A stretch of DNA of 64,000 nt. Source: Hyphococcus sp. Lineage in GTDB: Bacteria > Pseudomonadota > Alphaproteobacteria > Caulobacterales > Parvularculaceae. The stretch covers positions 1 through 64,000 of the forward strand of contig JANQJK010000001.1 of the NCBI GenBank assembly GCA_028281665.1, written 5' to 3'. This document shows, in pieces, positions 2,569 through 17,133 of the stretch (positions are counted from its first letter, which is position 1; each line of letters begins with the position of its first letter). A program made the translations under genes and the position numbers. The notes beneath the pieces were generated by a model. That model saw only the letters and a list, made by a program, of their open reading frames with translations. It had not been told where the DNA came from and searched no databases.

Positions 2569-2740
2569 GTAGCATTAACTCTGACGACTTGCTGACCTGC
2601 AACGGCGCCGCTTCGTTTAGGCGTATGCGGTTTCGCGCCCTCGGCCGTTAGTAAATTGTTACATAATTTCTGCAATTTATAGTTGTTGATTGTTAAAACC
2701 ACACGCACGCCGCTGCGCATGCCGAAACGAGGGACGATCC

Positions 2741-3667
2741 GTGCCGCAATCGCAGACTATCCTTTTGCTGGAGGACGATGATTTCGACGCCGCGGTGACC
2801 CGCGAACTGCTCGAAAAATGTTGCAGGCGCCCGTTTGCCGTTGAGCGGTGCAGGCGTCTTTCCGAGGCGTGCAAACTGATTTCCCGGCGCGAATTTCTCG
2901 CAACCCTTGTGAGTATCGATCTGCCCGGCGCTTCCGGACTTGAAACCGTGCGGGATCTTCATAACACGAGCCCCGAGACGCCGGTCATCGTCCTTACCGA
3001 GACGGACGACATTAACATCGCCGTCGCCGCTCTTGAGATCGGCGCCCAGGACTGCCTGCCGAAAACATCGCTCGACAGCCGCGCGCTGGAAAGGGTGATT
3101 GAATACGGCATTAGCCGAAAAAAGAAGGAAAGCGACCTGACCACAAAAGCCTACCACGACAGCCTTACCGGCCTCGGCAGCCGGGCGCTGCTATACGACC
3201 GGTGGCGCCGGGGTTTGTCGCGGTCCAAGCGCGCGGGTCGGCAGGTCGGCGTTCTCGTTGTGAATGTCAATGATTTTCGGTCCGTCAACGACATGCACGG
3301 CCATGAAGCTGGCGACCTCTTGCTCATGCACCTTTCCGCACGGCTTAAAGCCTGCGTCAGAAACACAGATATCGTTGCGCGCCTTGGCGGCGACGAATTC
3401 GTCATTGTGCTTGAAAACGTACAATCGAAAAAAGAAACGGAAACCGTTCGCGACAAGCTGATGAACGACTTCAGCTACGCCATGGCGAGCAACGGCAAAA
3501 GAATTTCCTACACGGTCAGCATTGGCAGCGCCATCATCGATCCGCAGAGCGAAGATGACCTGCTGCACGCCATGCGCACAGCCGATGCGGAAATGCATGA
3601 ACACAAAGGACGCGGAAAGATAAAAAACCCTGCTACTTTTGAGCTTATGAAAACGCTTGCTCAGTAA
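2741..3667 (+). CDS. Response regulator with diguanylate cyclase (REC-GGDEF)
   Basis: I use the GTG at 2741 because GAGGGA lies 6 bases upstream; the frame extends further 5' but that part lacks family features. The 308-residue protein has an N-terminal receiver domain (acidic residues near 11-13, phospho-acceptor Asp60 in 'SIDLPG', Lys108 in 'CLPK') followed by a GGDEF domain. The active-site motif GGDEF is intact (216-220), and an RxxD inhibitory site (RNTD) lies five residues before it, so product-inhibited c-di-GMP synthesis is expected. There are no membrane segments, so it is cytoplasmic. No histidine kinase is adjacent. It lies between the island end and a broken sugar operon, suggesting that this junction has been rearranged. 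Confidence 0.92.
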   Translation: MPQSQTILLLEDDDFDAAVTRELLEKCCRRPFAVERCRRLSEACKLISRREFLATLVSIDLPGASGLETVRDLHNTSPETPVIVLTETDDINIAVAALEIGAQDCLPKTSLDSRALERVIEYGISRKKKESDLTTKAYHDSLTGLGSRALLYDRWRRGLSRSKRAGRQVGVLVVNVNDFRSVNDMHGHEAGDLLLMHLSARLKACVRNTDIVARLGGDEFVIVLENVQSKKETETVRDKLMNDFSYAMASNGKRISYTVSIGSAIIDPQSEDDLLHAMRTADAEMHEHKGRGKIKNPATFELMKTLAQ

Positions 3668-3870
3668 CGCGACAGATCGTCGAATACGTTCCGACGCGCC
3701 GCCGGCGCGCCGCAATCGCGGATCGCGCTCAGCAATGCCGGCCCCGCGCCCGGGCTGACGAGAAACGCCACGCCCGCATCGATTGAGTCCTGCACATCCT
3801 GCGGCGTCCTGATCGTCCCCATGCCAATCATCAAATGCGGCGCGGCATCCATAATGTCTTCAATGGTCAC
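3661..3870 (-). pseudogene. eda: KDPG aldolase (eda) internal fragment
   Basis: A 69-codon frame beginning at a GTG that overlaps the glk stop codon contains a clear stretch of 2-keto-3-deoxy-6-phosphogluconate aldolase: 'IGMGTIRTPQDVQDSIDAG', then 'FLVSPGAGPALLSAI'. It corresponds to roughly residues 50-110 of the usual 210-residue enzyme. The N-terminal part with the catalytic Glu and the whole C-terminal half with the Schiff-base Lys are missing. Similarity stops near 3703, just before the convergent GGDEF gene, whose last codons it overlaps. It cannot be an active aldolase. Its position downstream of glk fits a former Entner-Doudoroff operon. Confidence 0.75.
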
Positions 3871-4829
3871 GTTTGTCCCTCCATAGCCGCCGCCGCGCCG
3901 TAGAGCGCCGCCCCCTCGGCGACAATCAGCTTTACGGGAACGGGCTCCACATAGCTTTTCATGCGGCCTTTGCTGAGAAATGTCTCTGTGAAACCACTGG
4001 CGAGAAAGACATCGCGGATCTTCGGCAGGATGCCGCCGCCGAGCACCACGCCGCCGCGCGCCCCTGTGGAGAGAACGGCGTCGCCCGCGACCCGCCCGAG
4101 AATGGCGCAAAAAAGATCCACCGCCTTCGCGGCAATCGGGCAGGTCCCGCTGATCGCCGCGGCGGTGATTTCATCGGCCGGCAGCGACGCACGGGGCGCG
4201 CCCGCAATAGCGCAAAGCGCGCGATGAATATTGATGAGGCCCCGGCCCGAAAGAAGTCGCTCCACGGAAACCCGCGGGTGCTCTTTCGCGATGAATTGCA
4301 TGACCTCAACCTCTTCTTCCGTACGCGGCGCAAAGGTAACGTGCCCGCCTTCCGTGGGAACGATGATCTGCCCGGCGGGCGACGGCACGATCAGCGCCTG
4401 CCCAAGCCCGGTGCCCGGCCCGATCACAAGAGTCGGCGCTTGCGGATTCGGAGTTCCCGCCTTGACGGTGACGAAGGCGTTTTCCGGCAAATGGCTGATC
4501 CCGGCGGCGAGGGCGTAAAAGTCGTTCACCACCTTGAAATCGTCGAGACGCAATCCGGTGCGGACCTCGTCCGGGCGCAGGCGCCAGTGAGAGTTCGTGA
4601 AAACGATCTCATCTCCGTCAACAGGACCGGCGACCGCAAAGCACGCCCGGCGCGGGCGCGCGCCCACGGATCCAAGATACGCGTCCGCCGCATCGCGAAC
4701 AGTCTCGAAATCCTCGGCGCGAAAATTCTGCGCGTCGCGGATCGCGATGGCGCCGCCGGCAACCGCATCGGCAAGCGCAAAGCGTGCATTCGTTCCGCCA
4801 ATATCTGCGACCAGAAGCGGATCAGCCAT
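3867..4829 (-). CDS. glk: Glucokinase (ROK-independent bacterial Glk family)
   Basis: This 320-residue protein phosphorylates glucose with ATP in the cytoplasm. It has the N-terminal phosphate-binding motif 'DIGGTNARFAL' (residues 9-19), 'TNSHW' and 'VNDFYALA' around the substrate-binding region, the 'GPGTGLGQA' loop, 'EGGHVTFAP' and 'RLLSGRGL'. Length and motif order match Glk of the E. coli type. The ATG is 4 bases after the stop of the upstream edd remnant, with GGAG overlapping that stop codon, which is typical operon spacing. Both operon neighbours are broken genes while glk appears intact, suggesting it is still selected, perhaps to serve the divergent alpha-glucosidase. Confidence 0.95.
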   Translation of the reverse strand: MADPLLVADIGGTNARFALADAVAGGAIAIRDAQNFRAEDFETVRDAADAYLGSVGARPRRACFAVAGPVDGDEIVFTNSHWRLRPDEVRTGLRLDDFKVVNDFYALAAGISHLPENAFVTVKAGTPNPQAPTLVIGPGTGLGQALIVPSPAGQIIVPTEGGHVTFAPRTEEEVEVMQFIAKEHPRVSVERLLSGRGLINIHRALCAIAGAPRASLPADEITAAAISGTCPIAAKAVDLFCAILGRVAGDAVLSTGARGGVVLGGGILPKIRDVFLASGFTETFLSKGRMKSYVEPVPVKLIVAEGAALYGAAAAMEGQT

Positions 4830-4833
4830 CGCA

Positions 4834-5037
4834 CTACTCCAGTCCGAATGTCATGGCGCCATCTTCCGCCCCGCCGACCAGCGACCGGAACCCGGCGAAC
4901 AGTTCCCGGCCAGAGCCGCGGCGCTCCTCCGCAAGGTCGCGCACAGCCGGCTCGCGCGCATCGCCCGCCGCGCCGAAAACGACGAGGTCAAAGGCGCTGA
5001 CTGGAACGAATTGCGCGGCGCTGGCGGGCTCGCTCAC
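4834..5037 (-). pseudogene. zwf-start/edd-end fusion scar (deleted Entner-Doudoroff genes)
   Basis: From a GTG at 5037 the frame encodes about 67 residues. The first 26 end in 'FDLVVFGAAGD', which looks like the N-terminus and NADP-binding strand of glucose-6-phosphate dehydrogenase (zwf). The rest, 'GSGRELFAGFRSLVGGAEDGA' plus a few residues, looks like the extreme C-terminus of 6-phosphogluconate dehydratase (edd). The join near 4960 keeps frame. The simplest reading is one deletion running from early zwf, through pgl, to the end of edd in a zwf-pgl-edd-glk operon. Promoter, start and junction to glk remain. Family matches are from memory of these termini; the edd part is supported by its position directly before glk. 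Confidence 0.65.
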
Positions 5038-5186
5038 TGGCGATGCTCTCTTTTTTGATGTTGCACCGCACAATAACGGCTAACGTGCTGATGCGCAATG
5101 CATGTCTCGCCGGCGCCGGGGAAACTACTGTGAGATGCCGGGCCGGCCGCAACGGCGTTTTTAACCCCGACCGCCCGTCGCCGCAC

Positions 5187-5192
5187 TATAAT
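5187..5192 (+). promoter_or_regulatory. Candidate -10 element (TATAAT) of the alpha-glucosidase gene
   Basis: A perfect TATAAT lies 34 bases before the chosen GTG start. No good -35 hexamer stands 16-18 bases upstream, so an activator may be needed. Its position downstream of the longer frame's first ATG (5043) supports the later start. Confidence 0.4.
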
Positions 5193-5225
5193 GTCCTACA
5201 GGCGAATCATCGGGAGCGCAGCGAA

Positions 5226-6875
5226 GTGGACCCCAGTGGGCCGGAGAACGAAACGGGCGCGGGCGCGAACGAAAGCGAATGGTGGCGAGGCGCCGTCATC
5301 TATCAGATTTACCCGCGCAGTTTTCTCGACTCCAATGGCGACGGCGTCGGCGACCTGAAAGGCGTCCTTGCGGGCCTCGACCATGTGGCGAGCCTTGGCG
5401 TCGACGCCATATGGCTGTCGCCGTTTTTTACCTCGCCCATGAAAGATTTCGGTTACGATGTCGCCGACTATCGCGACGTCGATCCGGTCTTCGGCGACCT
5501 TTCCGATTTCGACGCCATTGTCGAAAAGGCGCATCGGCTTGGCCTCAAGGTCATCATCGACCAGGTTTATTCGCATACGTCGGACCGTCACGGCTGGTTC
5601 GAAGAGAGCCGGCAAAACAGAGAAAACCCTAAGGCGGACTGGTATGTCTGGGCCGCCCCGAAACCGGACGGGTCGCCGCCCAATAACTGGCAATCCGTGT
5701 TCGGCGGCGGTGCATGGGAATGGGATGCCCGTCGCCGACAATACTACCTGCATAATTTCCTTGTCAGCCAGCCGGATCTGAACCTGCACAATAAATCCGT
5801 ACAGGATGCATTGCTTGACACGGCGCGGTTCTGGCTCGATCGGGGCGTAGACGGTTTCCGTCTCGATGCATTGAACTTCGCCATGCACGACCCGCAATTA
5901 CGGGACAATCCGCCGGCGCCGCAGAGTGGCCGGACCCTGACGCGTCCGTTTGACTATCAGCAGCATGCCTACAGCCGGTCCCATCGCGGGATTCCGGCTT
6001 TTCTGGAACGCATTCGCGACGTCGCAAACCAATATGAAAGCGTGTTTACGGTCGCCGAGGTAGTCGGCGACGCGCCGCTTGACGAAATGAAGGCGTTTAC
6101 GGCGGGCGGGCGCCGTTTGAACTCAGCCTATGACTTCGCTTTTCTCTACGCCGACAGATTATCGAACAAACTCGTCAGGCAAACGGTCGCCGCCTGGGGC
6201 GGCGACGCGGGCGAAGGCTGGCCCTCATGGACGTTTTCAAATCACGACGCGCCGCGGGTCGTCAGTCGGTGGGCTGACGAGAAGAACAGGGACCGCGCCG
6301 CGCGGCTTTTTGCGATGCTGCTCATGGCATTGCGCGGCAATGTGTTCCTTTATCAGGGCGAGGAACTCGGGCTGCCGCAAGGCGACGTTCCGTTCGAATG
6401 CCTTCAAGACCCGGAAGCCATCGCCAACTGGCCGCTGACGCTGGGCCGCGACGGTGCGCGCACGCCGATGCCCTGGACCGCAAATCAGCCGAACGCCGGG
6501 TTTTCGTCCGGCAAGCCTTGGCTGCCGGTCGACCCGCGCCATTTGCCGTTGTCCGTCAACGAGCAGGAAAAGTCCGAGACCTCCATGCTGCATTTCATGC
6601 GCGCGTTGATCCGTCTACGCCGGGAAAGCAATGCATTGAGGAGCGGCGCAATCGAGTTCGTCGAAACCCAAGACGGCGCACTGGCATTTTACCGCCGCGC
6701 AGGAGCTGACGCGGCGTTGTGCGTTTTCAATCTTAGCGATACGGCCGCGCGCTGGAAACCGCCCGCGGAAACGCCGTATGCACTTGCGGCAAGCACAGGG
6801 ATCGAAACCGGCGACAGAGCGCCGCCAACGGCGCTCGCCCCATATTCCGGCTACATCGCCTTTCCCGTCTGCTAA
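5226..6875 (+). CDS. Alpha-glucosidase, GH13 family
   Basis: I chose the GTG at 5226 because GGGAG lies 9 bases upstream and a TATAAT box precedes it; the family N-terminus 'WWRGAVIYQIYPRSF' begins about 20 residues later. The 549-residue protein has GH13 barrel motifs in order: 'DAIWLSPFF', 'DYRDVDP', 'GLKVIIDQVYSHTS', the nucleophile Asp214 in 'DGFRLDALNF', the acid/base Glu278 in 'TVAEVVG', and Asp341 in 'NHDAP'. This layout matches alpha-glucosidases/oligo-1,6-glucosidases that hydrolyse maltose or isomaltose-type oligosaccharides. There is no signal peptide, so it is probably cytoplasmic. It is divergent from the glk operon, which would phosphorylate the glucose released. Confidence 0.93.
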   Translation: MDPSGPENETGAGANESEWWRGAVIYQIYPRSFLDSNGDGVGDLKGVLAGLDHVASLGVDAIWLSPFFTSPMKDFGYDVADYRDVDPVFGDLSDFDAIVEKAHRLGLKVIIDQVYSHTSDRHGWFEESRQNRENPKADWYVWAAPKPDGSPPNNWQSVFGGGAWEWDARRRQYYLHNFLVSQPDLNLHNKSVQDALLDTARFWLDRGVDGFRLDALNFAMHDPQLRDNPPAPQSGRTLTRPFDYQQHAYSRSHRGIPAFLERIRDVANQYESVFTVAEVVGDAPLDEMKAFTAGGRRLNSAYDFAFLYADRLSNKLVRQTVAAWGGDAGEGWPSWTFSNHDAPRVVSRWADEKNRDRAARLFAMLLMALRGNVFLYQGEELGLPQGDVPFECLQDPEAIANWPLTLGRDGARTPMPWTANQPNAGFSSGKPWLPVDPRHLPLSVNEQEKSETSMLHFMRALIRLRRESNALRSGAIEFVETQDGALAFYRRAGADAALCVFNLSDTAARWKPPAETPYALAASTGIETGDRAPPTALAPYSGYIAFPVC

Positions 6876-7121: not shown

Positions 7122-7685
7122 ATGAGCAAGACGGCAAAGAAGTTAAAACAGTATCATGAAATGTACCGAATTGGGTTCGATCGATCCCGTCCGCTCGACG
7201 AGCAGTATCATGGGCTGATGGCGGCAAAGGAACTTCGTGCTGAGTTAGACCTATTCCCGACTATATCTGGCTGGGTTGGCGACAAAGGAACGCAACAAGC
7301 TGTCGACCGTATCGAACGCCGTATTTCACGAATCAAAAAAATAAACAATGCGCGTTTCGACGTCACGGCGGCAATTACCCACGAAGGCGCGGCTAAAGGC
7401 AATCGCACAAGTGCCAAAAATCGTGGTTGGTCAAACGCGAAATGCCGTAGCGCAGCCCTAAAGACAATTGAATTGCTCAATGAACGTTATCCAAGATGGC
7501 GGGAAGGCCAAGGAAAGCGATTACCGGGCTCGCATGGCAAAGGTGGAATCGGTGCAATGTATTGCGAAGTTTGCGGGTTGAAAAACTCGGATGAAGCAAG
7601 AAAATACATACATATTGGTGTTCAGCAACTTGCCGATCGCGAAAATATCGATGCCTTGGAGCTTTTGAGAAAACCTTGGTTCTAA
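7122..7685 (+). CDS. Hypothetical protein, first gene of the tRNA-Gly element
   Basis: I do not recognise this 187-residue protein. It is strongly basic and soluble, with no signal peptide or membrane segment. A Lys/Arg-rich helix (residues 60-80, 'RIERRISRIKKINNARFD') is followed by a Gly/Lys-rich stretch ('GQGKRLPGSHGKGGIG') and a lone CxxC ('CEVC') near 150. The basic character would suit nucleic-acid binding, but that is inference. It is codirectional with the following small genes, about 100 bases upstream of the next one. A+T-rich codon use sets it apart from the host genes. Confidence 0.6.
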   Translation: MSKTAKKLKQYHEMYRIGFDRSRPLDEQYHGLMAAKELRAELDLFPTISGWVGDKGTQQAVDRIERRISRIKKINNARFDVTAAITHEGAAKGNRTSAKNRGWSNAKCRSAALKTIELLNERYPRWREGQGKRLPGSHGKGGIGAMYCEVCGLKNSDEARKYIHIGVQQLADRENIDALELLRKPWF

Positions 7686-7747
7686 GATTTGCTTTCCCAG
7701 TCTAAATATCAGCGACTAATTCGTTGCCCATACATCCTTGGGTAATT

Positions 7748-7784
7748 ACTCACGGTTCGGACAACCGAACCAGAAACCGTGAGT
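7748..7784 (+). promoter_or_regulatory. Nested, mutually exclusive hairpins upstream of 7792 gene
   Basis: A perfect 10-bp inverted repeat ACTCACGGTT/AACCGTGAGT (7748-7757, 7775-7784) encloses a second perfect 7-bp hairpin GGTTCGG-ACAA-CCGAACC (7754-7760, 7765-7771). The two share the bases GGTT, so only one can form at a time. The outer repeat ends 7 bases before the ATG. This could be a repressor operator, or an RNA switch that masks or exposes the start region. Confidence 0.5.
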
Positions 7785-7791
7785 ATTGGCT

Positions 7792-8301
7792 ATGACACCT
7801 ATCGAACAGAAAGACCTTCAGCGAGACGTTGAAGGCGCTCATAAACTGCTCCAAAACGCATTTGGCCGAAAGCTCAGTGATCGTGAAGTTGCTGAGCGAT
7901 TTACTCGACTTGAACGTCGCCTATGCCGCACCACGCTTAGCAGGGTCGAAACCGGCGTTTCGTGGTCACTAATTGATTCAAGGTGTCTTCGTGCTGTGCA
8001 GCGAAGCGGCCACCACTATGCTGCACTACTTGCGGCAATTGCAGGAATAGATCTGTCGGACCACAAGTCGGAAATTGATTTCATAGCACGTGACGACGAC
8101 AGGTTAGCCGATAAAATTCGAAGCGTCCGGATAGAATTTGCTCTCTGGAACAGAACGCAAAACCCCAACGCCGATGGAATTGATGTCGATTCGATTTGTA
8201 TTTCGTATGCCGCTGCCAGTATTCGGGCCCGGATCGAACTTAACCTACGAAATGGCGAAGAACCTCTAGGCCATTTCGAGTGCACAGATCGACTCCATTA
8301 A
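7792..8301 (+). CDS. Hypothetical protein
   Basis: The ATG at 7792 is preferred over an in-frame TTG two codons upstream. The roughly 169-residue product is soluble and not recognised. The first half has a helix-rich region with 'FGRKLSDREVAERFTRLERRLCRTTLSRVETG', which is reminiscent of a helix-turn-helix regulator's start, but I see no clean motif. The second half contains 'ALLAAIAGIDLS' and acidic stretches. The palindrome directly upstream would suit an autoregulated gene. Codon use is A+T-rich like the rest of the element. Confidence 0.55.
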   Translation: MTPIEQKDLQRDVEGAHKLLQNAFGRKLSDREVAERFTRLERRLCRTTLSRVETGVSWSLIDSRCLRAVQRSGHHYAALLAAIAGIDLSDHKSEIDFIARDDDRLADKIRSVRIEFALWNRTQNPNADGIDVDSICISYAAASIRARIELNLRNGEEPLGHFECTDRLH

Positions 8302-8437
8302 CGCCACTCACGTAGCGAACAGTTTTGAAGAAGCCCGCACAAATACTGTTTAAATGCGCACCGCAAAAACGATCGGTTATTCATTCATACCAGCTAAACA
8401 AACGAACCATCGTATAGAAACATAAACGGTAATCACA

Positions 8438-8986
8438 ATGAGCGAGTCGAATGCGATAGTTAACCGGCGTGGCAAATGGAGCTTGAAAGGCGTTCCGCAC
8501 AAGGGGTGGGAATGCGTTGATTGTGAAGACTTGGGCGAACCAGCCCAAACGTGTGAAATGTGTGAATCAACAGAGATTCGATATGTTCACGTAATGAGAC
8601 ATCCCGATTTCGAGACTGAACTACGCGTAGGATGCGTTTGTGCTGAGCACCTTTCCGAAGGATATGTTGGAAAGGAAAATGAACGCAGACTACGGAACTA
8701 TGCGAAGCGTCGGTCGCGTTTTCTAAATCGAAAGTGGAAGACTTCGAGAAGCGGTAATCCCAAGATTGAATTGAATGATTATCCCATTACAATTTTTGAA
8801 AAGGTATGCGGTTGGAAGTATGTGATTACGGTCGGGTTCTTTAAACCTTGGGCACCAGACGAGTCTCCAGAATCAATCTTCAGCGATCGCACTTTCAAAA
8901 CCAAGGACGATGCCAAACTTGCAGCGTTTGATCATGTAATGAGATTAGGACCGAGATATCAGAACCATACGTCCAAGACTCAATAA
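8438..8986 (+). CDS. Hypothetical zinc-ribbon-like protein
   Basis: This 182-residue protein has three closely spaced cysteine pairs: 'CVDC' near 26, 'CEMC' near 38, and 'CVCAEH' near 65 (a Cys-x-Cys plus His). The pattern suggests a structural zinc site. A basic patch follows ('RRLRNYAKRRSRFLNRKWK', near 85-105), then a beta-rich tail with 'GWKYVITVGFF'. I cannot name a family. Small zinc-ribbon proteins of this kind are common in phages and plasmids, often as nucleic-acid-binding factors. The gene ends 12 bases before the helicase gene and probably shares its transcript. Confidence 0.6.
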   Translation: MSESNAIVNRRGKWSLKGVPHKGWECVDCEDLGEPAQTCEMCESTEIRYVHVMRHPDFETELRVGCVCAEHLSEGYVGKENERRLRNYAKRRSRFLNRKWKTSRSGNPKIELNDYPITIFEKVCGWKYVITVGFFKPWAPDESPESIFSDRTFKTKDDAKLAAFDHVMRLGPRYQNHTSKTQ

Positions 8987-8998
8987 TCTCGCAGTTAT

Positions 8999-10429
8999 AT
9001 GACCAAACCCGACATACGACTGGTCCCGATCAGCGCTGAACAGTTCATGGCGGTGCGGCGGAAGATCGAATCGATCGCTCCGGAGCAACCGCGGGCTATC
9101 GTCGACGACTACACACCTGACGAAGTCTGCATCGAACTGATCCAGACCGGTGCGGCGTATCACGACCCGTCCACCCGTCTCGCCTGGAGGGGCTACACGG
9201 CTGATCAGATCCGAGCTTTTTTCGATGCGTCGGTCGATCGGGGGAGTAAGCGATGGAACGAGCGGTATCGTGAAATCGATGCAGCGGTCGCTTCGGCGTG
9301 GAAGAAACACACCGCTCGCGCCAACAAATTCTTCGCTGAGCCCATTACGTCCCAAAGCCTGCCCAACACAGCGCCACCGCGGCACGTCACGTTCGATACG
9401 ATCTCTGCAGCTTCATTTTACGGACAGCCTATCCCGCGCCAGCCCTGGCTCATCGACGGCATGCTACCAGCCGGCCAACCGTCGCTATTGAGCGGAGACG
9501 GCGGGCTTGGGAAGTCTTACCTGGCCCTTCAATTGTCGGTCAGCGTTGTAGCTACGGGAATGTGGCTATCTCGCAGTGTCGAACGCGGGTCAGTGCTGTA
9601 CGTCTCGTGTGAAGACGAAACCGCCGAGATCCACCGCCGATTGGAAAAAATCAGCAAGCATGCGGGAGTGACAGTGAATGATCTCAGCGGCCTCCATATC
9701 GCTCCAATGGCTGACCGTGATGCCCTGTTAGCGTCAACGACCCGTGCGGGGCTACAGATGACGCCACTATTCGCGGCGCTCAGTGAACGCGTTGCGGCCT
9801 CACGACCCACGCTCGTCGTACTCGACAGCCTCGCAGATGTTTACGGCGGCAATGAGATCGATAGAGCGCAGGTGCGGTGGTTCATCGGTCAGTTGCGGTC
9901 ACTGTGTCATACGACGGGAGCGACTATCGTCATTCTATCTCACCCATCGCTTAGCGGCATGGCGTCTGGTTCGGGTTTGTCTGGATCGACCCATTGGAAC
10001 AATTCGGTTCGTTCGCGATTGTACCTGACGCGGCCGGATAGCGGGAACAATGACGAACGGGTTTTAGAAGTTAAGAAGAACAACCGCGGTGAGACGGGTC
10101 GTCAGATCGAGCTGGAGTGGAGGAATGGTGTGTTCGTCGCACTCGACGGAGGCGACGCTAGACGTTTCGTAGAGGCGGATATAGATGACTTGTTCATGAC
10201 CTTACTCAAGCGCTTCACCGAGCAAGGTCGCTACGTCAACGCCAGCGGCGGGACGACATATGCTCCCTCGGTATTCGAAAAAGAGCCGGAAGCAAAAGCA
10301 CGGCGGATCAAGAAAAGGCAGTTTTCGGAAGCTATGTCTCGACTGTTCGGTGCGGGACGGATCGCCGTGGGAACACGCAAATCGGGCGGTCACGAACGGC
10401 AATTCATTGAGATTACTGGGGACAGTTAG
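8999..10429 (+). CDS. RepA-like hexameric helicase / AAA ATPase
   Basis: This 476-residue protein has a RecA-fold ATPase domain (about residues 140-345) of the RepA/AAA_25 type. Walker A is 'GDGGLGKS' at 166-173, 'YVSCEDE' lies near 201-207 after strand 2, Walker B is 'LVVLDSLAD' around 272-280, and 'ILSHPS' is the sensor strand. The N-terminal 130 residues form a separate helical region, and the C-terminal 80 are basic with a winged-helix-like pattern. Family members unwind origins of mobilisable plasmids and occur in phage satellites. Here it is the only replication gene of the element. The ribosome-binding site is weak, and a small upstream gene ends 12 bases before, so translational coupling is possible. 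Confidence 0.85.
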   Translation: MTKPDIRLVPISAEQFMAVRRKIESIAPEQPRAIVDDYTPDEVCIELIQTGAAYHDPSTRLAWRGYTADQIRAFFDASVDRGSKRWNERYREIDAAVASAWKKHTARANKFFAEPITSQSLPNTAPPRHVTFDTISAASFYGQPIPRQPWLIDGMLPAGQPSLLSGDGGLGKSYLALQLSVSVVATGMWLSRSVERGSVLYVSCEDETAEIHRRLEKISKHAGVTVNDLSGLHIAPMADRDALLASTTRAGLQMTPLFAALSERVAASRPTLVVLDSLADVYGGNEIDRAQVRWFIGQLRSLCHTTGATIVILSHPSLSGMASGSGLSGSTHWNNSVRSRLYLTRPDSGNNDERVLEVKKNNRGETGRQIELEWRNGVFVALDGGDARRFVEADIDDLFMTLLKRFTEQGRYVNASGGTTYAPSVFEKEPEAKARRIKKRQFSEAMSRLFGAGRIAVGTRKSGGHERQFIEITGDS

Positions 10430-10603
10430 TCTCGCGCGCGACCCTTACACTCCCCCGCGCTCCCCTCGGTAAGTCATTGATTTTTCTACGTCGCCCCTTC
10501 GCGCGCGCACTCCCCATACCCCTATACGCTCCGCGTCGCCTATGGCGGCAACCGCGGGCGTGTAAATGGAAATTCTCAACGTAACGCCAAGCACGGGTAT
10601 GTT
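10430..10603. other. G/C-tract-rich intergenic region after the helicase gene
   Basis: On the minus strand this 174-base gap carries repeated G-runs: GGGG at least four times plus a GGGGG, between 10436 and 10526, mixed with alternating CG stretches (CGCGCGCG). 'ACTCCCC' occurs twice on the plus strand. A gap of this type beside a replication gene could be an origin or a structured DNA region. I see no gene and no clear iteron set. Confidence 0.35.
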
Positions 10604-11824
10604 GTGCACGTTTTCGGTGATTCGGAAAAGCTACTCATGTTCGAGAAAATTACATTACGGCGGAGCGAAAACGGAGTCCCGTTTAGCATCGGGCATTTAG
10701 CCGAGGCCATGCTTTTTCACCAAAATGTACATGTTTTACTAGATCGGTGGAGCACTATTGCGCTTGCAAAGTCGCTCGGATCAGACCTTCTCCTTTCAAT
10801 ACTGGAGCGGCCGGAAGTAACTGCAACCTTCACGGAACAAATACTCGCTACCCACACCAAAACGGTCAACGGAATAAGTGTATATGACTGGGGGGCAATT
10901 CAGTTCGCTGGAGACCAAGATAGGGGAGTCTTGAAAAAGCAGGCTAGGATAACCGACATCTTTTTAAAGGCAGGCCTCCCTAAAGGCGAAGCAAAAAAAG
11001 CGAGCAGACGCTTTCGCGAGTTGACAAAAACTCGATCACTAACGTCAAACTACTATGCGCCTGGTGGTATTCCCGAAGCAGCGCGCGAGGAAGCCACCGA
11101 TATGGCATATTTCTCACACGCGCTCGCCACCAGTTTAGCGAATGATATTAAGAGGCCGGAACTAGCAAAAGAATTTAAGTTTGAAATAACACGCATTGAT
11201 GGCGGTTTTTTCGTTGTCGATAACGTAAACTGGGAACAAGTAAATGAGGAAAGAAAAAAGATATTACCAAATGTCGATGACATTGGCTGCGCACACGTAC
11301 TTTCGTCATTTCAGAACGCCGTTGCTGATCTACACATAGCATCACACTACGGCGGCGAATATGTGACTGACTCAATTTCATCTCAGCTAACGCGACTCAA
11401 ATATTCAAAATTGCTAAAAAGAATTGGGCGAGATACCAATTCAGTATCCGAATTCCAAGACGCGGTGCTAGATAATGCCGCGGCGGTTCGCGAATGCATA
11501 AATTCGGGCGAAAAGACGTTTGCAGAGTTTTTAAGAGTAATTGACCGTCGCGACGGGAAAAAGTTTAAGGAGTTTTGGGCTGGCGTGAACTCCGATGAAA
11601 ACGTTCTGCGAGCGTACTTTGAAGAAAGCTCGCGACGGGGCTGGATCGAGAATATACCAAGCAAAACAATTCGTTTCGCCTTTTGCACCACGATTGGCGC
11701 TGTTTCGCTTCCGGTAGGAATTGCCCTTTCGGCAAGCGATTCGTTTCTGGTGGAAAAGTTAACGAGAGGGTGGCGGCCACATCATTTCGTCGAGCGACAC
11801 TTAAAACCATTCGCTGAGTCATAA
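10604..11824 (+). CDS. Uncharacterised 406-aa protein, first gene of a two-gene accessory cassette
   Basis: Translation may start at GTG 10604 or ATG 10637 (residue 12). I do not recognise a named domain. The N-terminal 120 residues alternate helices and strands around 'SIGHLAEAMLFHQNVHVLLDR' and 'LAKSLGSDLLLSILERPEV', which recalls a widespread uncharacterised group. The middle is helical and charged. Near the C-terminus is one hydrophobic stretch ('FCTTIGAVSLPVGIALSAS', about 365-385), then a basic aromatic tail ('RGWRPHHFVERHLKPF'). The gene is A+T-rich compared with the helicase. The next gene starts 8 bases after its stop, so the two are almost certainly co-transcribed. Function unknown; a defence or host-interaction role is only a guess from location. 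Confidence 0.75.
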   Translation: MHVFGDSEKLLMFEKITLRRSENGVPFSIGHLAEAMLFHQNVHVLLDRWSTIALAKSLGSDLLLSILERPEVTATFTEQILATHTKTVNGISVYDWGAIQFAGDQDRGVLKKQARITDIFLKAGLPKGEAKKASRRFRELTKTRSLTSNYYAPGGIPEAAREEATDMAYFSHALATSLANDIKRPELAKEFKFEITRIDGGFFVVDNVNWEQVNEERKKILPNVDDIGCAHVLSSFQNAVADLHIASHYGGEYVTDSISSQLTRLKYSKLLKRIGRDTNSVSEFQDAVLDNAAAVRECINSGEKTFAEFLRVIDRRDGKKFKEFWAGVNSDENVLRAYFEESSRRGWIENIPSKTIRFAFCTTIGAVSLPVGIALSASDSFLVEKLTRGWRPHHFVERHLKPFAES

Positions 11825-11832
11825 GAAACAAG

Positions 11833-13488
11833 ATGAGCTTTGTCGGTATCACTGTTGGGAATGCGGTCGCTGCGCTAGCTTTTACATTTGCAATTCAACA
11901 GTTCTTGCGGCCAATTCATCTATTTCGTTTGCGCTCACAAGGGCTTCCAATAAATGTCTTCTATATAGCTATCTTTATCGCAGCGGGTTTTGTGTTTGCA
12001 GGAAACTTTGTTCGAAGTTTTGAGATTTTACCGTCATCGAACCACCTTTTCGCTTCGATTCTTGAGTATGTTGGCGCCGCTCTCTTTATTGTTTCCTATC
12101 TAGGCGTAGCCTTCATCGCAACAATAAGACCGCGATTTTCGCGCCGAAACGCGATTCCCTTCACTCAAGCAGCATTTTCGCTAATGTCAAAAGCGAAGGA
12201 AGAAGATTATGTACGGTTTTTTCATGACATAGTTCACAACATCACGGAGATATTTGAACTCGCTAAATTCAACGAACAGTACCGTTTTGCAGGGATCGGC
12301 AGAGAGCGACCCAGCGCTTTTTTTGATTTTATTCACAGGCACACTATCGAGCGGTCAGCCTATGCTGGTGATCTGCTGTCTATGTTATCGGATAGTAGGT
12401 TTTGTAAGGCAATCATTACGCACGATTCAACGGCAGTCGTCCAACTACTTGCAAAAATATCGCACGGCAGGCTGCATAGTTCTAAAGGCCAACGCATGAT
12501 TCAGGAGCTTGCCCGTCAATCAATTCTTCTCGATTCATCCATGCTTGAACGGGAAGTCGGCTACCACGGATTTAGTCACATTGGGCTATTTTTAGAGTCT
12601 ATGTTTGGCGATAGCTTCATTGTTAGAAGTTACAAACCACTAAACAAGATTAGCGCGTTCTATGATGTCGATATTTCGCACCGATTCGTGGAACGTCTAT
12701 CCGCGGCAGTTCAACAGGTCTGGAAAACAGGGGCGGGAGAAATTTGGCACCCTCAATCCGTTTATGATGTGGCACGATTGCTGGATTCATTGTCATCCAC
12801 CATTCGTAGTCTAGAAGAGAAAGATACTACGCAATGGCGCTTATCGGCGCCAATTCCCCGTATACTTCAAACAATTGTTGAGGCTTCCAACAAGGAGATT
12901 TTGGAATTAACTACCGAGGAAAGGCGTTCGCTATATAAGCCTGATGAGGAAACCAGCGCTCACGAACACATTGCTTCGCTAACTGCCGAAATCATCTTCG
13001 ATTATTTTTGCAACATATCCAATGGGTTTTTGGGGTTTGAAGACAAGCAATGGGTAGGAGCGCTTGATGTATTTGGAGAAGTCTTTCCTTCTGGAGATAC
13101 TCAGCCCGCGGGCCTCGACCCCATTCAACAACATCTTGCACTACGAATTATCGGAAAAGTACGCGATAATATGATTGGTTACTATCCAGCGATAACCAGA
13201 TTGTTGCTGGCAGTCATCGGCCCTTACGGCTCGCGAAACGGCAAAAGTAATAGTGCATTTCAACTGTTAGAAGATGCTTTCTACTTTGAACTACGTCGGT
13301 TTTCCGCGCTAGCAATTGAATCCCCTGAAAAGGTTTCGGATTATTTGCCTCCTAACGTTCGGTTTCAAAAGGAACAGAGTGTTTTGGTGCATCGCTATGC
13401 GTTCAATAGTGGCATACGCGAAACGAATTTGAATAAATTAAATCTTGGCGGCGTCGACTTTTACGATAAAAGCCGATTTGTGTCATAG
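11833..13488 (+). CDS. Uncharacterised 551-aa membrane protein, second gene of the cassette
   Basis: The N-terminus has three predicted membrane segments (about residues 5-25, 40-60 and 72-97, e.g. 'FYIAIFIAAGFVFAGNF'). A basic stop-transfer ('RPRFSRRN') follows, then about 440 cytoplasmic residues, mostly helical. I see no catalytic motif: no P-loop, HD, nuclease or protease signature. Conspicuous segments are 'FFHDIVHNITEIFELAKFNEQ' and a conserved-looking C-terminal region ending 'LNLGGVDFYDKSRF'. It is coupled to the upstream 406-aa gene with an 8-base gap. A membrane-anchored large helical protein paired with a soluble partner in an integrative element resembles the layout of many abortive-infection modules, but nothing in the sequence proves that. 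Confidence 0.75.
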   Translation: MSFVGITVGNAVAALAFTFAIQQFLRPIHLFRLRSQGLPINVFYIAIFIAAGFVFAGNFVRSFEILPSSNHLFASILEYVGAALFIVSYLGVAFIATIRPRFSRRNAIPFTQAAFSLMSKAKEEDYVRFFHDIVHNITEIFELAKFNEQYRFAGIGRERPSAFFDFIHRHTIERSAYAGDLLSMLSDSRFCKAIITHDSTAVVQLLAKISHGRLHSSKGQRMIQELARQSILLDSSMLEREVGYHGFSHIGLFLESMFGDSFIVRSYKPLNKISAFYDVDISHRFVERLSAAVQQVWKTGAGEIWHPQSVYDVARLLDSLSSTIRSLEEKDTTQWRLSAPIPRILQTIVEASNKEILELTTEERRSLYKPDEETSAHEHIASLTAEIIFDYFCNISNGFLGFEDKQWVGALDVFGEVFPSGDTQPAGLDPIQQHLALRIIGKVRDNMIGYYPAITRLLLAVIGPYGSRNGKSNSAFQLLEDAFYFELRRFSALAIESPEKVSDYLPPNVRFQKEQSVLVHRYAFNSGIRETNLNKLNLGGVDFYDKSRFVS

Positions 13489-13740
13489 GCATTGAATGCC
13501 GTTATATCAGTTATCCAAGTAACTTATGGTGGTGGGGCTGCTCAAAAGTTCAAATCCGTCCAGCCCAAACCGGCTGCCAAGTGAAAATTTTTCGCGCGCA
13601 GGTTGTGAGAACAAAAAAGGAACGTCAGTATCGCTTTTAAGATTTGCTAAGTAAATCTGATTTTCCTTTTATTTTCAATACACTAGAGTTGACGCCGTAG
13701 CCTTTTTCCGTAGAGTTCACTCGTCGCCTTTATCGGTTTC

Positions 13741-13757
13741 GCCGCGTCGGTGACCGG
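13741..13757 (+). repeat. 17-bp direct repeat GCCGCGTCGGTGACCGG, copy 1
   Basis: Identical to 13890-13906, 149 bases downstream. A weaker relative 'CGCGTCCGTGACCG' lies at about 13856-13869 between them. The repeats are confined to the G+C-rich patch upstream of the capsid gene. Confidence 0.6.
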
Positions 13758-13889
13758 CATCCGGTATCGATAAGGCGCAAGGTCGGACGGTCTGATCACC
13801 CGCCCGACCGACGCCGCGACCGCAGCGCTCGCGTAGAGCGCCCCAGCGCCGCCGTCGCGTCCGTGACCGACGATGCAGGTGTTTGGAGG

Positions 13890-13906
13890 GCCGCGTCGGT
13901 GACCGG
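13890..13906 (+). repeat. 17-bp direct repeat GCCGCGTCGGTGACCGG, copy 2
   Basis: Perfect copy of 13741-13757. It ends 57 bases before the capsid start codon. Confidence 0.6.
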
Positions 13907-13963
13907 TTTTCACGTAACGGCTTGCGACTGTCGCAGGCCTTGAAAGCTAAAGGTCTAAAAACC

Positions 13964-15205
13964 ATGAAATACCAATCTGAACTCGTGTCCACGGGGCGCG
14001 TTCCCCGTGTGCTTGCTCATTACGACAGAAACGAAGTTGCCGAGGCGACACGTCTAATTCACGAAATCAACAATGCATTTAGCGATTTTCGCTCGCGAAA
14101 CGATGCGAAGATTTCTGAACTGCAAGAGAACCAGGATGAATTGAATCGTCGCTTTGCAGCGGGCCCAGTATCGTCTGACAATGACGTTACTTTGCCTGTT
14201 CGTAGGGACGGAAGGCCGCGCCTGAGTCAATCCGCTGCCGACAACTTCCTTGGGTTACTCCAAGGCGATCCGCAGATGGCAATGACGGTTGGCTCGGATC
14301 CTGACGGCGGGTTCTCTGTTGAGCGTGAACTTGATAATGAAGTCCTTCGGGTGATCCGTAATTCCAGCGCCATGCGCCGCTTGGCATTCAACGCCAACTT
14401 AAGCATGGGCTTCGGATCATGGAAAAAACTTGTGACGACACAAGGCGGCGCGAGCGGTTGGGCTTCCGAGTCTGACACACGCGGACAGACCGACACGGCC
14501 CTATTCGGAGCGGTCGAGGTGTTCCCGTCAGAACTGTTCGTCAATGCGGAAGTGTCAAACTACCTATTGGATGACGCCGGTTTTAGCATCGAGCAGTTCC
14601 TGCAAACAGACGTTGCTGATGAATTCAGCGCAACAGAGGGGGCTGCGTTTGCAAATGGCAATGGATCGAATAAGCCGCTTGGCCTATTTCAACATCCAAC
14701 GTCGACTGACGATGACGATGCCCGAGAATTCGGAACGCTCGAATATGTTCCAACTGGCATAGCCGGAGCATTTTCCGGTTCCAGCGCTTCGCCGTCGTCT
14801 TCGCCCTATGATGTGTTGGTCGACCTGATCTCCAGGTTTCGGGTCGGCTATCTTGCAAACGCCACCTGGCTAATGAGCCCCCAAACAGCCGGAACTTTGC
14901 GCAAAGTGAAGGATCAGGACGGTCGGTTCATCTGGCAGGACTCATTGATCGCTGGACAGCCATCTATGTTACTCGGTTATCCGGTGGAAATGGACGAAAA
15001 CGCCCCTGCTATCGCTGCCGATTCGCTGTCGATTGCATTTGGCGATTTCAGCCGAGGCTACGTGATCGTCGACCGGCCGGGCATGCAGCTTGTTCGTGAC
15101 CCGTACACGAAGAAGGGCTTCACGCGGTTTTACTTCACTCGTCGCGTTGGCGGTCGCGTCCTAGATTCGCGTGCCATAAAGTTCATTAAATTCAGCAACT
15201 CCTAA
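13964..15205 (+). CDS. HK97-family phage major capsid protein
   Basis: The ATG at 13964 follows AAAGG by 10 bases. The 413-residue product has the family architecture. Residues about 15-60 form a charged helical scaffold (delta) segment ('EVAEATRLIHEINNAF', 'DAKISELQENQDELNRR'). The mature capsid fold starts near residue 100, with the usual 'DPDGGFSVERELDNEVLRVIR', then 'GASGWASESDTR', 'FPSELFVNAEVSNYLLDD', 'GAAFANGNGSNKPLGL', 'TWLMSPQTAGTLRKVKDQDGRFIW', and 'GDFSRGYVIVDRPG' to the end. Such proteins form the icosahedral shell. Prohead protease, portal and terminase, normally adjacent, are absent, so shell formation, if any, would need a helper phage. A strong terminator follows. Confidence 0.95.
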   Translation: MKYQSELVSTGRVPRVLAHYDRNEVAEATRLIHEINNAFSDFRSRNDAKISELQENQDELNRRFAAGPVSSDNDVTLPVRRDGRPRLSQSAADNFLGLLQGDPQMAMTVGSDPDGGFSVERELDNEVLRVIRNSSAMRRLAFNANLSMGFGSWKKLVTTQGGASGWASESDTRGQTDTALFGAVEVFPSELFVNAEVSNYLLDDAGFSIEQFLQTDVADEFSATEGAAFANGNGSNKPLGLFQHPTSTDDDDAREFGTLEYVPTGIAGAFSGSSASPSSSPYDVLVDLISRFRVGYLANATWLMSPQTAGTLRKVKDQDGRFIWQDSLIAGQPSMLLGYPVEMDENAPAIAADSLSIAFGDFSRGYVIVDRPGMQLVRDPYTKKGFTRFYFTRRVGGRVLDSRAIKFIKFSNS

Positions 15206-15221
15206 CGTCCGGCTGAACTTG

Positions 15222-15260
15222 GCCCCGCCTCTTCGTTTCCTAGGAGGCGGGGCTTCTTTC
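15222..15260 (+). terminator. Rho-independent terminator after the capsid gene
   Basis: A perfect 10-bp G+C-rich stem (GCCCCGCCTC/GAGGCGGGGC, 15222-15231 and 15244-15253) with a 12-base loop is followed by TTCTTTC. It stands 17 bases after the capsid stop and separates that gene from the integration genes. Confidence 0.85.
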
Positions 15261-15270
15261 AAACAGCAAA

Positions 15271-15492
15271 ATGGCTGATACCGAGCATCATAAAAGCAAA
15301 CGTCGCCGCTATCCGACACAAGCAGCGATTGATCGGGTTATTCGGGCTGCTCGCAAGGCGGGAATTTTCGTAAATGGCATCGAAGTTTCGCCAGATGGCG
15401 TCATTCGCGTTATTGACAGGACGGAATCGCCGCAGGACGATTTTGAGCGATGGCAACGATCGAAGGCATTCACTTCGTCCGCCGACGTCTAG
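15271..15492 (+). CDS. Small basic protein overlapping the integrase gene
   Basis: The 73-residue protein begins with a Lys/Arg-rich stretch ('KSKRRRYPTQAAIDRVIRAARKAG'), followed by two short strands ('VSPDGVIRVID') and an acidic linker. This pattern, 'ptqaaI.raiRAArkaG...v...Dg.irv', is one I associate with small genes set just before integrases in alphaproteobacterial islands. Its last 43 bases overlap the integrase start in another frame, so the two are translationally linked. It might be a directionality factor or a DNA-binding regulator; the function is not established. Confidence 0.75.
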   Translation: MADTEHHKSKRRRYPTQAAIDRVIRAARKAGIFVNGIEVSPDGVIRVIDRTESPQDDFERWQRSKAFTSSADV

Positions 15493-16493
15493 CGTCGGGC
15501 GCTGTTCGTTGGCACGTATATGCGTGGCGGGGTGGTCCTAAGGTAATGACCGCTGACGGCTTGGCGAAACCGTCTCTTACGCCAGAAGCCCTCACCGCTA
15601 TTGTCAAAGCACATGAGAACGCAACAGAGCCGCGACGCGATACTTTCGATGGTCTCGTTGTCGCATATCTCGGCAGTGCTGAGTTTAGTCGCCTTGCCGA
15701 AACTACACGCCGTCAGTGGCGAACCTGGGCGGACCGGGCGCGAACTGAGTTCGGTCACGCACCGCTGAAACTGTTTTCGGACCCAAGAATGCGGGGGGCC
15801 ATTCTTGAATGGCGAGACAAGTGGGCCAACTCACCGCGATCGGCTGATTATGCCATGCAGGTTCTGTCGCGAGTTCTTTCATGGGGGCTGCAACGCGGTT
15901 GGGTCATGCATAACCCGGCTGCGGGAATGCCCACTCTTTATCGTGCAGACCGTTCCGACATCATCTGGGAAGACCACGAAATCGATGCGGTGGCCGCCAA
16001 GATGCACCCACATGCGGCGCGCGCGTTCAGATTGGCCGCATGGACTGGGCTACCGAGATCGGATCTCGTGTCGCTGCGATGGGACGACGTTGGCGATCTT
16101 TATATCAGCGGACGGCGCGGAAAAACGAAAGTGGAACGTTGCATTCCGATCTTTGATGAGACGCGAGAATTACTGGCCGGCTTTCCAAAATGTGCCGTCA
16201 CAGTGGTGACTAATTACCGTGGCCGTCCATTTTCAGCGCGAGGGTTTTCAGCGTCATTTGAGAAGGCCAAGGCCGCGGCTGGGATTAGCGGAAAAACCCT
16301 TCACGACCTTCGCGGTACGTTCGCGACACGGCTTATGCGCAAAGGGTTTGAAGACCGGGTGATCGACGAAATCCTTGCGTGGGAAACAGGCCGGTCCGTT
16401 CGCATTCGACGCAAGTACATTACCCGCAAAGCTGTGGTAATTTCCGCAATTGAACGGATGCGCAATCGAAAATCTACTGACCCTGACCGATAA
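15450..16493 (+). CDS. int: Tyrosine recombinase/integrase of the tRNA-Gly element
   Basis: This 347-residue site-specific recombinase has an N-terminal arm-binding region (about 1-60), a SAM-like core-binding domain (about 65-165) and a catalytic domain. Likely active-site residues are Arg203 ('TGLPRSDLVSLRW'), Lys near 225-227 ('GRRGKTK'), His285 and Arg288 ('LHDLRGTFATRL'), Trp311 in the third basic/aromatic position ('ILAWETGRS') and the nucleophile Tyr323 ('RRKYI'). All expected positions are filled, so it should be active. Its target is the 3' part of tRNA-Gly(TCC), judged from the 44-bp duplications. It overlaps the small upstream gene, and its 3' end overlaps the convergent membrane gene by 20 bases. 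Confidence 0.95.
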   Translation: MATIEGIHFVRRRLASGAVRWHVYAWRGGPKVMTADGLAKPSLTPEALTAIVKAHENATEPRRDTFDGLVVAYLGSAEFSRLAETTRRQWRTWADRARTEFGHAPLKLFSDPRMRGAILEWRDKWANSPRSADYAMQVLSRVLSWGLQRGWVMHNPAAGMPTLYRADRSDIIWEDHEIDAVAAKMHPHAARAFRLAAWTGLPRSDLVSLRWDDVGDLYISGRRGKTKVERCIPIFDETRELLAGFPKCAVTVVTNYRGRPFSARGFSASFEKAKAAAGISGKTLHDLRGTFATRLMRKGFEDRVIDEILAWETGRSVRIRRKYITRKAVVISAIERMRNRKSTDPDR

Positions 16494-17059: not shown

Positions 17060-17103
17060 TGGAGCGGGTAGCGGGAATCGAACCCGCATATTCAGCTTGG
17101 AAG
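17060..17103 (-). repeat. attR: 44-bp core within tRNA-Gly
   Basis: Identical to 6920-6963. Reading with the tRNA, it runs from the anticodon loop to the CCA end. Confidence 0.95.
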
Positions 17104-17133
17104 GCTGCTGCACTACCATTGTGCTATACCCGC
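17060..17133 (-). tRNA. tRNA-Gly (anticodon TCC), with encoded CCA
   Basis: Read on the minus strand the gene begins GCGGGTATAG, has an anticodon loop TTCCAAG (TCC) and a T-arm GCGGGTTCGATTCCCGC, and ends with discriminator T and CCA. All stems pair. The 3' 44 bases are the attachment core of the element to its left, which restores a complete tRNA on integration. Confidence 0.97.

Follow-up and report, generated by a model that had tools for sequence, protein, structure and literature searches.

The locus analysed here raises the question of how an intact glucokinase gene came to stand between fragments of other sugar-catabolic genes, and of what became of the pathway that those genes once served. 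It lies within the window, by which we mean the whole 64,000-nucleotide stretch of Hyphococcus sp. DNA examined. Our analysis makes it very probable that the locus is a decayed zwf-pgl-edd-glk-eda operon, from which the dedicated Entner-Doudoroff (ED) enzymes were lost while glk was kept, with glucose-6-phosphate now probably passing through Pgi and a PfkB-family kinase.

One sign of decay is a 67-aa frame at 4834-5037 on the minus strand, consisting of VSEPASAAQFVPVSAFDLVVFGAAGD up to the junction and AREPAVRDLAEERRGSGRELFAGFRSLVGGAEDGAMTFGLE from there to the stop codon, in which about 26 N-terminal codons of Zwf are fused in frame to about 41 C-terminal codons of Edd. The zwf remnant (4960..5037, minus strand) has the GTG start and ends in an FGAAGD motif; in tblastn searches it matches the Zwf N-termini of relatives at up to 77% (G012; best E 2e-8), and it reaches 91% over 22 codons against G014. 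The edd remnant (4834..4959, minus strand), followed by glk, matches the Edd C-termini of relatives at up to 71% (G012; best E 3e-14), and the NCBIfam edd model TIGR01196 matches the fused frame at E 1.1e-6 over model positions 554-600 of 601. When the frame is extended to a TTG start at 5073, giving 79 aa, the tblastn matches to the start of Zwf and the end of Edd fall on residues 17-38 and 38-79, respectively. Searches of Pfam with the 67-aa frame and of the PDB with the fused frame returned no match. The first-pass annotation had read a Zwf-like N-terminus joined to an Edd-like C-terminus at these coordinates, which proved right, and each half does resemble the enzyme named for it. The junction would be the product of one large in-frame deletion, of about 3.6-4.6 kb as judged from relatives, that took out pgl entirely, together with the greater part of both zwf and edd.

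Downstream of the fusion, glk (3867..4829, minus strand) encodes an intact glucokinase of 320 aa, with a full-length domain (PF02685, E 1.1e-106; TIGR00749 above its cut-off) and, in alignment, conserved glucokinase active-site residues, as the earlier description of an intact gene had implied. The eda remnant (3661..3870, minus strand; TIGR01182, E 4.5e-9) keeps Eda's own start (VTIEDIMDAA), which overlaps the glk stop, but alignment to intact Eda reveals an in-frame internal deletion of 49 codons and the loss of the 3' half as well. What remains aligns to residues 57-110 of the 213 of E. coli Eda, so that the catalytic residues Glu45 and Lys133 (E. coli numbering) both fall outside it, in agreement with the original reading of the fragment. 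At least two further deletions would thus have gutted eda, and the earlier count of at least two separate deletions can be broken down into the one joining zwf to edd, the one internal to eda and the loss of the eda 3' end.

The locus is flanked on the side of zwf by a divergent, alpha-glucosidase-like GH13 glycosidase gene (5043..6875, plus strand; PF00128, E 9.5e-121), homologues of which adjoin zwf or glk in relatives; its actual start codon probably lies downstream of 5043, because homology mostly begins near codon 58-80. On the other side, a response regulator-GGDEF gene (2690..3667, plus strand), recognised by Pfam and synteny, converges on the eda remnant and is the same neighbour in the sister genomes G023 and G001.

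Farther along the window, a phage-like element of about 10 kb (7122-16493), perhaps a satellite, lies near a tRNA-Gly gene (17060-17133, minus strand) and encodes an AAA_25 ATPase (8999-10429), a phage capsid protein (13883-15205) and a tyrosine integrase (15450-16493), with no further phage genes recognised in the frames scanned. At the start of the window, a tRNA-Ser gene (49-137) is followed by a 70-aa DUF6538 fragment (227-439), apparently what is left of an integrase at a tRNA site.

For the ancestral state of the locus we turned to 28 genomes of the genus (Parvularculaceae, Marinicaulis group), among them Marinicaulis sp. and Parvularculaceae MAGs, in which the window's own genome is designated G000. 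Genes zwf, edd, glk and eda stand together in ten of them (G012, G014, G016, G006, G007, G009, G010, G022, G025 and G026, with eda cut by the contig end in G012) and in two further genomes of the family (G032 and G033), and two genomes of the order (G051 and G057) likewise have zwf, edd and glk grouped; pgl was read directly in the operon of G014. The intact zwf-pgl-edd-glk-eda operon that the first-pass annotation expected close relatives to have is therefore present, and since outgroups from the same order also group zwf, edd and glk, we take it to be ancestral. At the window locus the remnants of zwf, edd and eda stand around glk in operon order: gene order, strand, glk and recognisable pieces of the other genes are shared with the alphaproteobacterial operon, but glk is the only one still intact, and the other four genes are either deleted or present as remnants. 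In G016, G006 and G007 a GH13 gene is divergent from zwf, which suggests that the window's glycosidase probably adjoined the operon already before the collapse. A partial form of the operon is seen at locus L033 of G003, where zwf is followed directly by glk, and edd and eda are on other contigs.

The first-pass annotation had left open whether the pathway was lost or relocated. We searched the genome of the window (3.35 Mb, 100% complete, a draft in 28 contigs) family by family for further copies of zwf, edd, eda and pfk. Genome-wide, there is no other zwf, no edd apart from IlvD and the remnant in the window, and no classical phosphofructokinase (PF00365); what was found is one other eda and a PfkB-family kinase. 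This eda is a paralogue, 41% identical to the operon type of G014, and adjoins a sugar kinase related to KDG kinases. The genome thus has neither a full-length zwf nor a full-length edd, and an Eda with the catalytic Glu and Lys is lacking at the window locus, with only the paralogue elsewhere. Since no other zwf or edd is present and the one further eda is a paralogue of 41% identity, the evidence argues for loss of the dedicated ED enzymes from the genome, and the loss half of the earlier alternative stands while the relocation half falls. Relocation is certainly known in relatives, with zwf and edd away from glk in G019, G021 and G002 and, in part, with edd and eda elsewhere in G003, but in a 100%-complete genome that has no zwf or edd, and whose remaining eda is of a different type, intact copies at another site are highly improbable. 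An assembly error that removed the middle of an intact operon is scarcely credible: the genome is indeed a draft in 28 contigs, but the assembly contains no match to zwf and no piece of edd except the remnant, eda carries lesions of its own, and both flanks are syntenic with those of G023 and G001, which themselves lack the ED pathway. A comparison of the locus with a plasmid collection gave no match.

Loss of the ED pathway is recurrent in the genus, and several relatives have lost the same operon independently. On a tree of rpoB, built from first and second codon positions and without G002, an outlier probably read in the wrong frame, and G027, for which the sequence was incomplete, the distribution of ED-less genomes requires seven changes, at least five of which are forced by well-supported branches, and a single clade of ED-less genomes is rejected (p-AU 6e-75). 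G000, G023 and G001 form a clade with 100/100 support, the sister of which, G014, has the operon. G004, G008, G017 and G020, each at least 95% complete, are ED-less as well; G001, G005, G011, G015 and G018 are less complete, and the absence of the pathway is correspondingly weaker there. In eight genomes (G000, G001, G008, G015, G020, G021, G023 and G027) glk directly adjoins the glycosidase gene. Remnants are also found outside the window's genome: G015 has a mini-frame that ends in an Edd tail (ERAMTFALE...) and overlaps the glk start, G023 and G001 have a fainter LEER/LKER-like Edd tail upstream of glk, and both the GTG start and the promoter region of the window's zwf can be aligned with G023 sequence.

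The timing of the collapse in G000 can be approached through the remnants themselves. Over 108 codons (codon positions 1 and 2), their divergence from intact relatives is no greater than the divergence of those relatives from one another, and in simulations neutral decay of 0.1 per site was compatible with the observed value in 5% of runs and decay of 0.15 per site in 0.1%. Because the remnants show no detectable neutral drift, the collapse looks recent, and we favour, as a reading not proven by these comparisons, a collapse in G000 after its split from G023; selective constraint on the remnants would, however, yield the same picture. That G000, G023 and G001 form a fully supported clade, all ED-less and with the same neighbours, would fit a single loss in their common ancestor, a timing that deserves consideration but that we find the less likely. 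The G000 remnants are compatible with no more than about 0.1 neutral changes per site, against a raw fourfold rpoB divergence between G000 and G023 of 0.337, about half of which is expected on the G000 side, and the divergence of glk relative to rpoB is at the operon-type rate in G000 (3.6) but faster in G023 and G001 (4.6).

Across the genus, glk outside the operon tends toward faster divergence relative to rpoB (4.4-5.5 in G001, G008, G020, G021 and G023) than the operon-borne copies (mostly 3.2-3.8, with two values at 4.3-4.5). In G021, conserved positions of glk are changed (N to H, E to Q).

With most of the operon gone, the surviving parts would be the promoter region and start of zwf, the 3' end of edd and an intact glk that could still be expressed from the old operon promoter. 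The putative promoter, TTGCGC-16-TTATTG (5071..5098, minus strand), is suggested by an alignment of the three sister genomes, in which G023 and G001 show a comparable block in the same position; a consensus scan did not call it and found no promoter. The end of the edd remnant probably carries the glk ribosome-binding site. The fused frame might instead be read as a small gene newly arisen and maintained by selection, for example a leader whose translation would link that of glk to the old zwf promoter. Both deletions left the frame open, its stop lies only four bases before the glk start, G015 has its analogous mini-frame, and the fragments carry no excess divergence; but an in-frame outcome has a chance of one in three per deletion, a recent deletion accounts equally well for the absent drift, and the fused protein occurs in none of the relatives examined, so that it is not seen as a conserved small protein. 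We therefore consider a selected small gene unlikely and prefer to regard the frame as a remnant of decay. A broader version, in which selection confined the surviving deletions in the genus so that the zwf promoter and the edd end bearing the glk ribosome-binding site were kept, the operon was repeatedly rewired to a single-gene glk unit and the fused remnant of G000 became a translated glk leader, is doubtful, if somewhat arguable.

As for what decay of the operon left for sugar metabolism, glk was probably kept to phosphorylate glucose freed by the divergent GH13 glycosidase, and glucose derived from oligosaccharides would then still be phosphorylated, as had been suggested at the outset. 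The genome encodes Pgi, and its PfkB-family kinase, encoded at G000:C28:38325-39230, scores above the TIGR03168 cut-off, has a GGGG motif and has E. coli Pfk-2 (PfkB) as its best match of solved structure (E 2.8e-50), although the models for 1-phosphofructokinase (TIGR03828) and Pfk-2 (PRK10294) score nearly alike and both below their cut-offs. The comparison with E. coli Pfk-2 has to allow for a genome without classical phosphofructokinase, in which the PfkB kinase is a putative 6-phosphofructokinase. Glk, Pgi and PfkB would form the likeliest, though unproven, route for glucose-6-phosphate, into lower glycolysis or into biosynthesis, with a PfkB-type kinase rather than a classical phosphofructokinase as a possible replacement. 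The oxidative branch of the pentose phosphate route would be closed too, because zwf itself is gone. Phosphoketolase, considered as an alternative route, is absent from the genome. The PfkB kinase is encoded in 19 of the 28 genomes of the genus; it occurs in 9 of 11 ED-less genomes as against 9/15, a difference in the expected direction that is not significant (p 0.39). Among FBPases and FBP aldolases, the searches covered class I FBPase (PF00316), found in none of the 28 genomes, G000 included, and class II FBP aldolase (PF01116), found in none apart from a 50-residue fragment in G005.

Unlike the genus, C. vibrioides has both a PF00316 FBPase and a PF01116 aldolase. In G023 (98% complete), Pgi (PF00342) was not found and zwf and edd are absent as well, with glk kept.

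Loss of the ED pathway is a type of event already known in the Alphaproteobacteria. Gene edd is disabled by mutation in B. abortus, B. melitensis and B. suis apart from biovar 5, while other members of the group keep the pathway, and the affected Brucella, which are without phosphofructokinase, rely on the pentose phosphate route (PMC7840955); G000, by contrast, lacks zwf too and has a PfkB-type kinase. A literature search for loss of the ED pathway in Parvularcula, Marinicaulis or Parvularculaceae returned nothing on point, and what is new here is the preserved intermediate together with the parallel losses within one genus. Pathway loss is mostly inferred from absence, whereas here the remnants show where the events took place and provide a handle on their age. 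Furthermore, a genus that holds both intact and collapsed forms of the operon, with losses in parallel, could be used to ask why the ED pathway is dispensable and why glucokinase outlasts the enzymes downstream of it.
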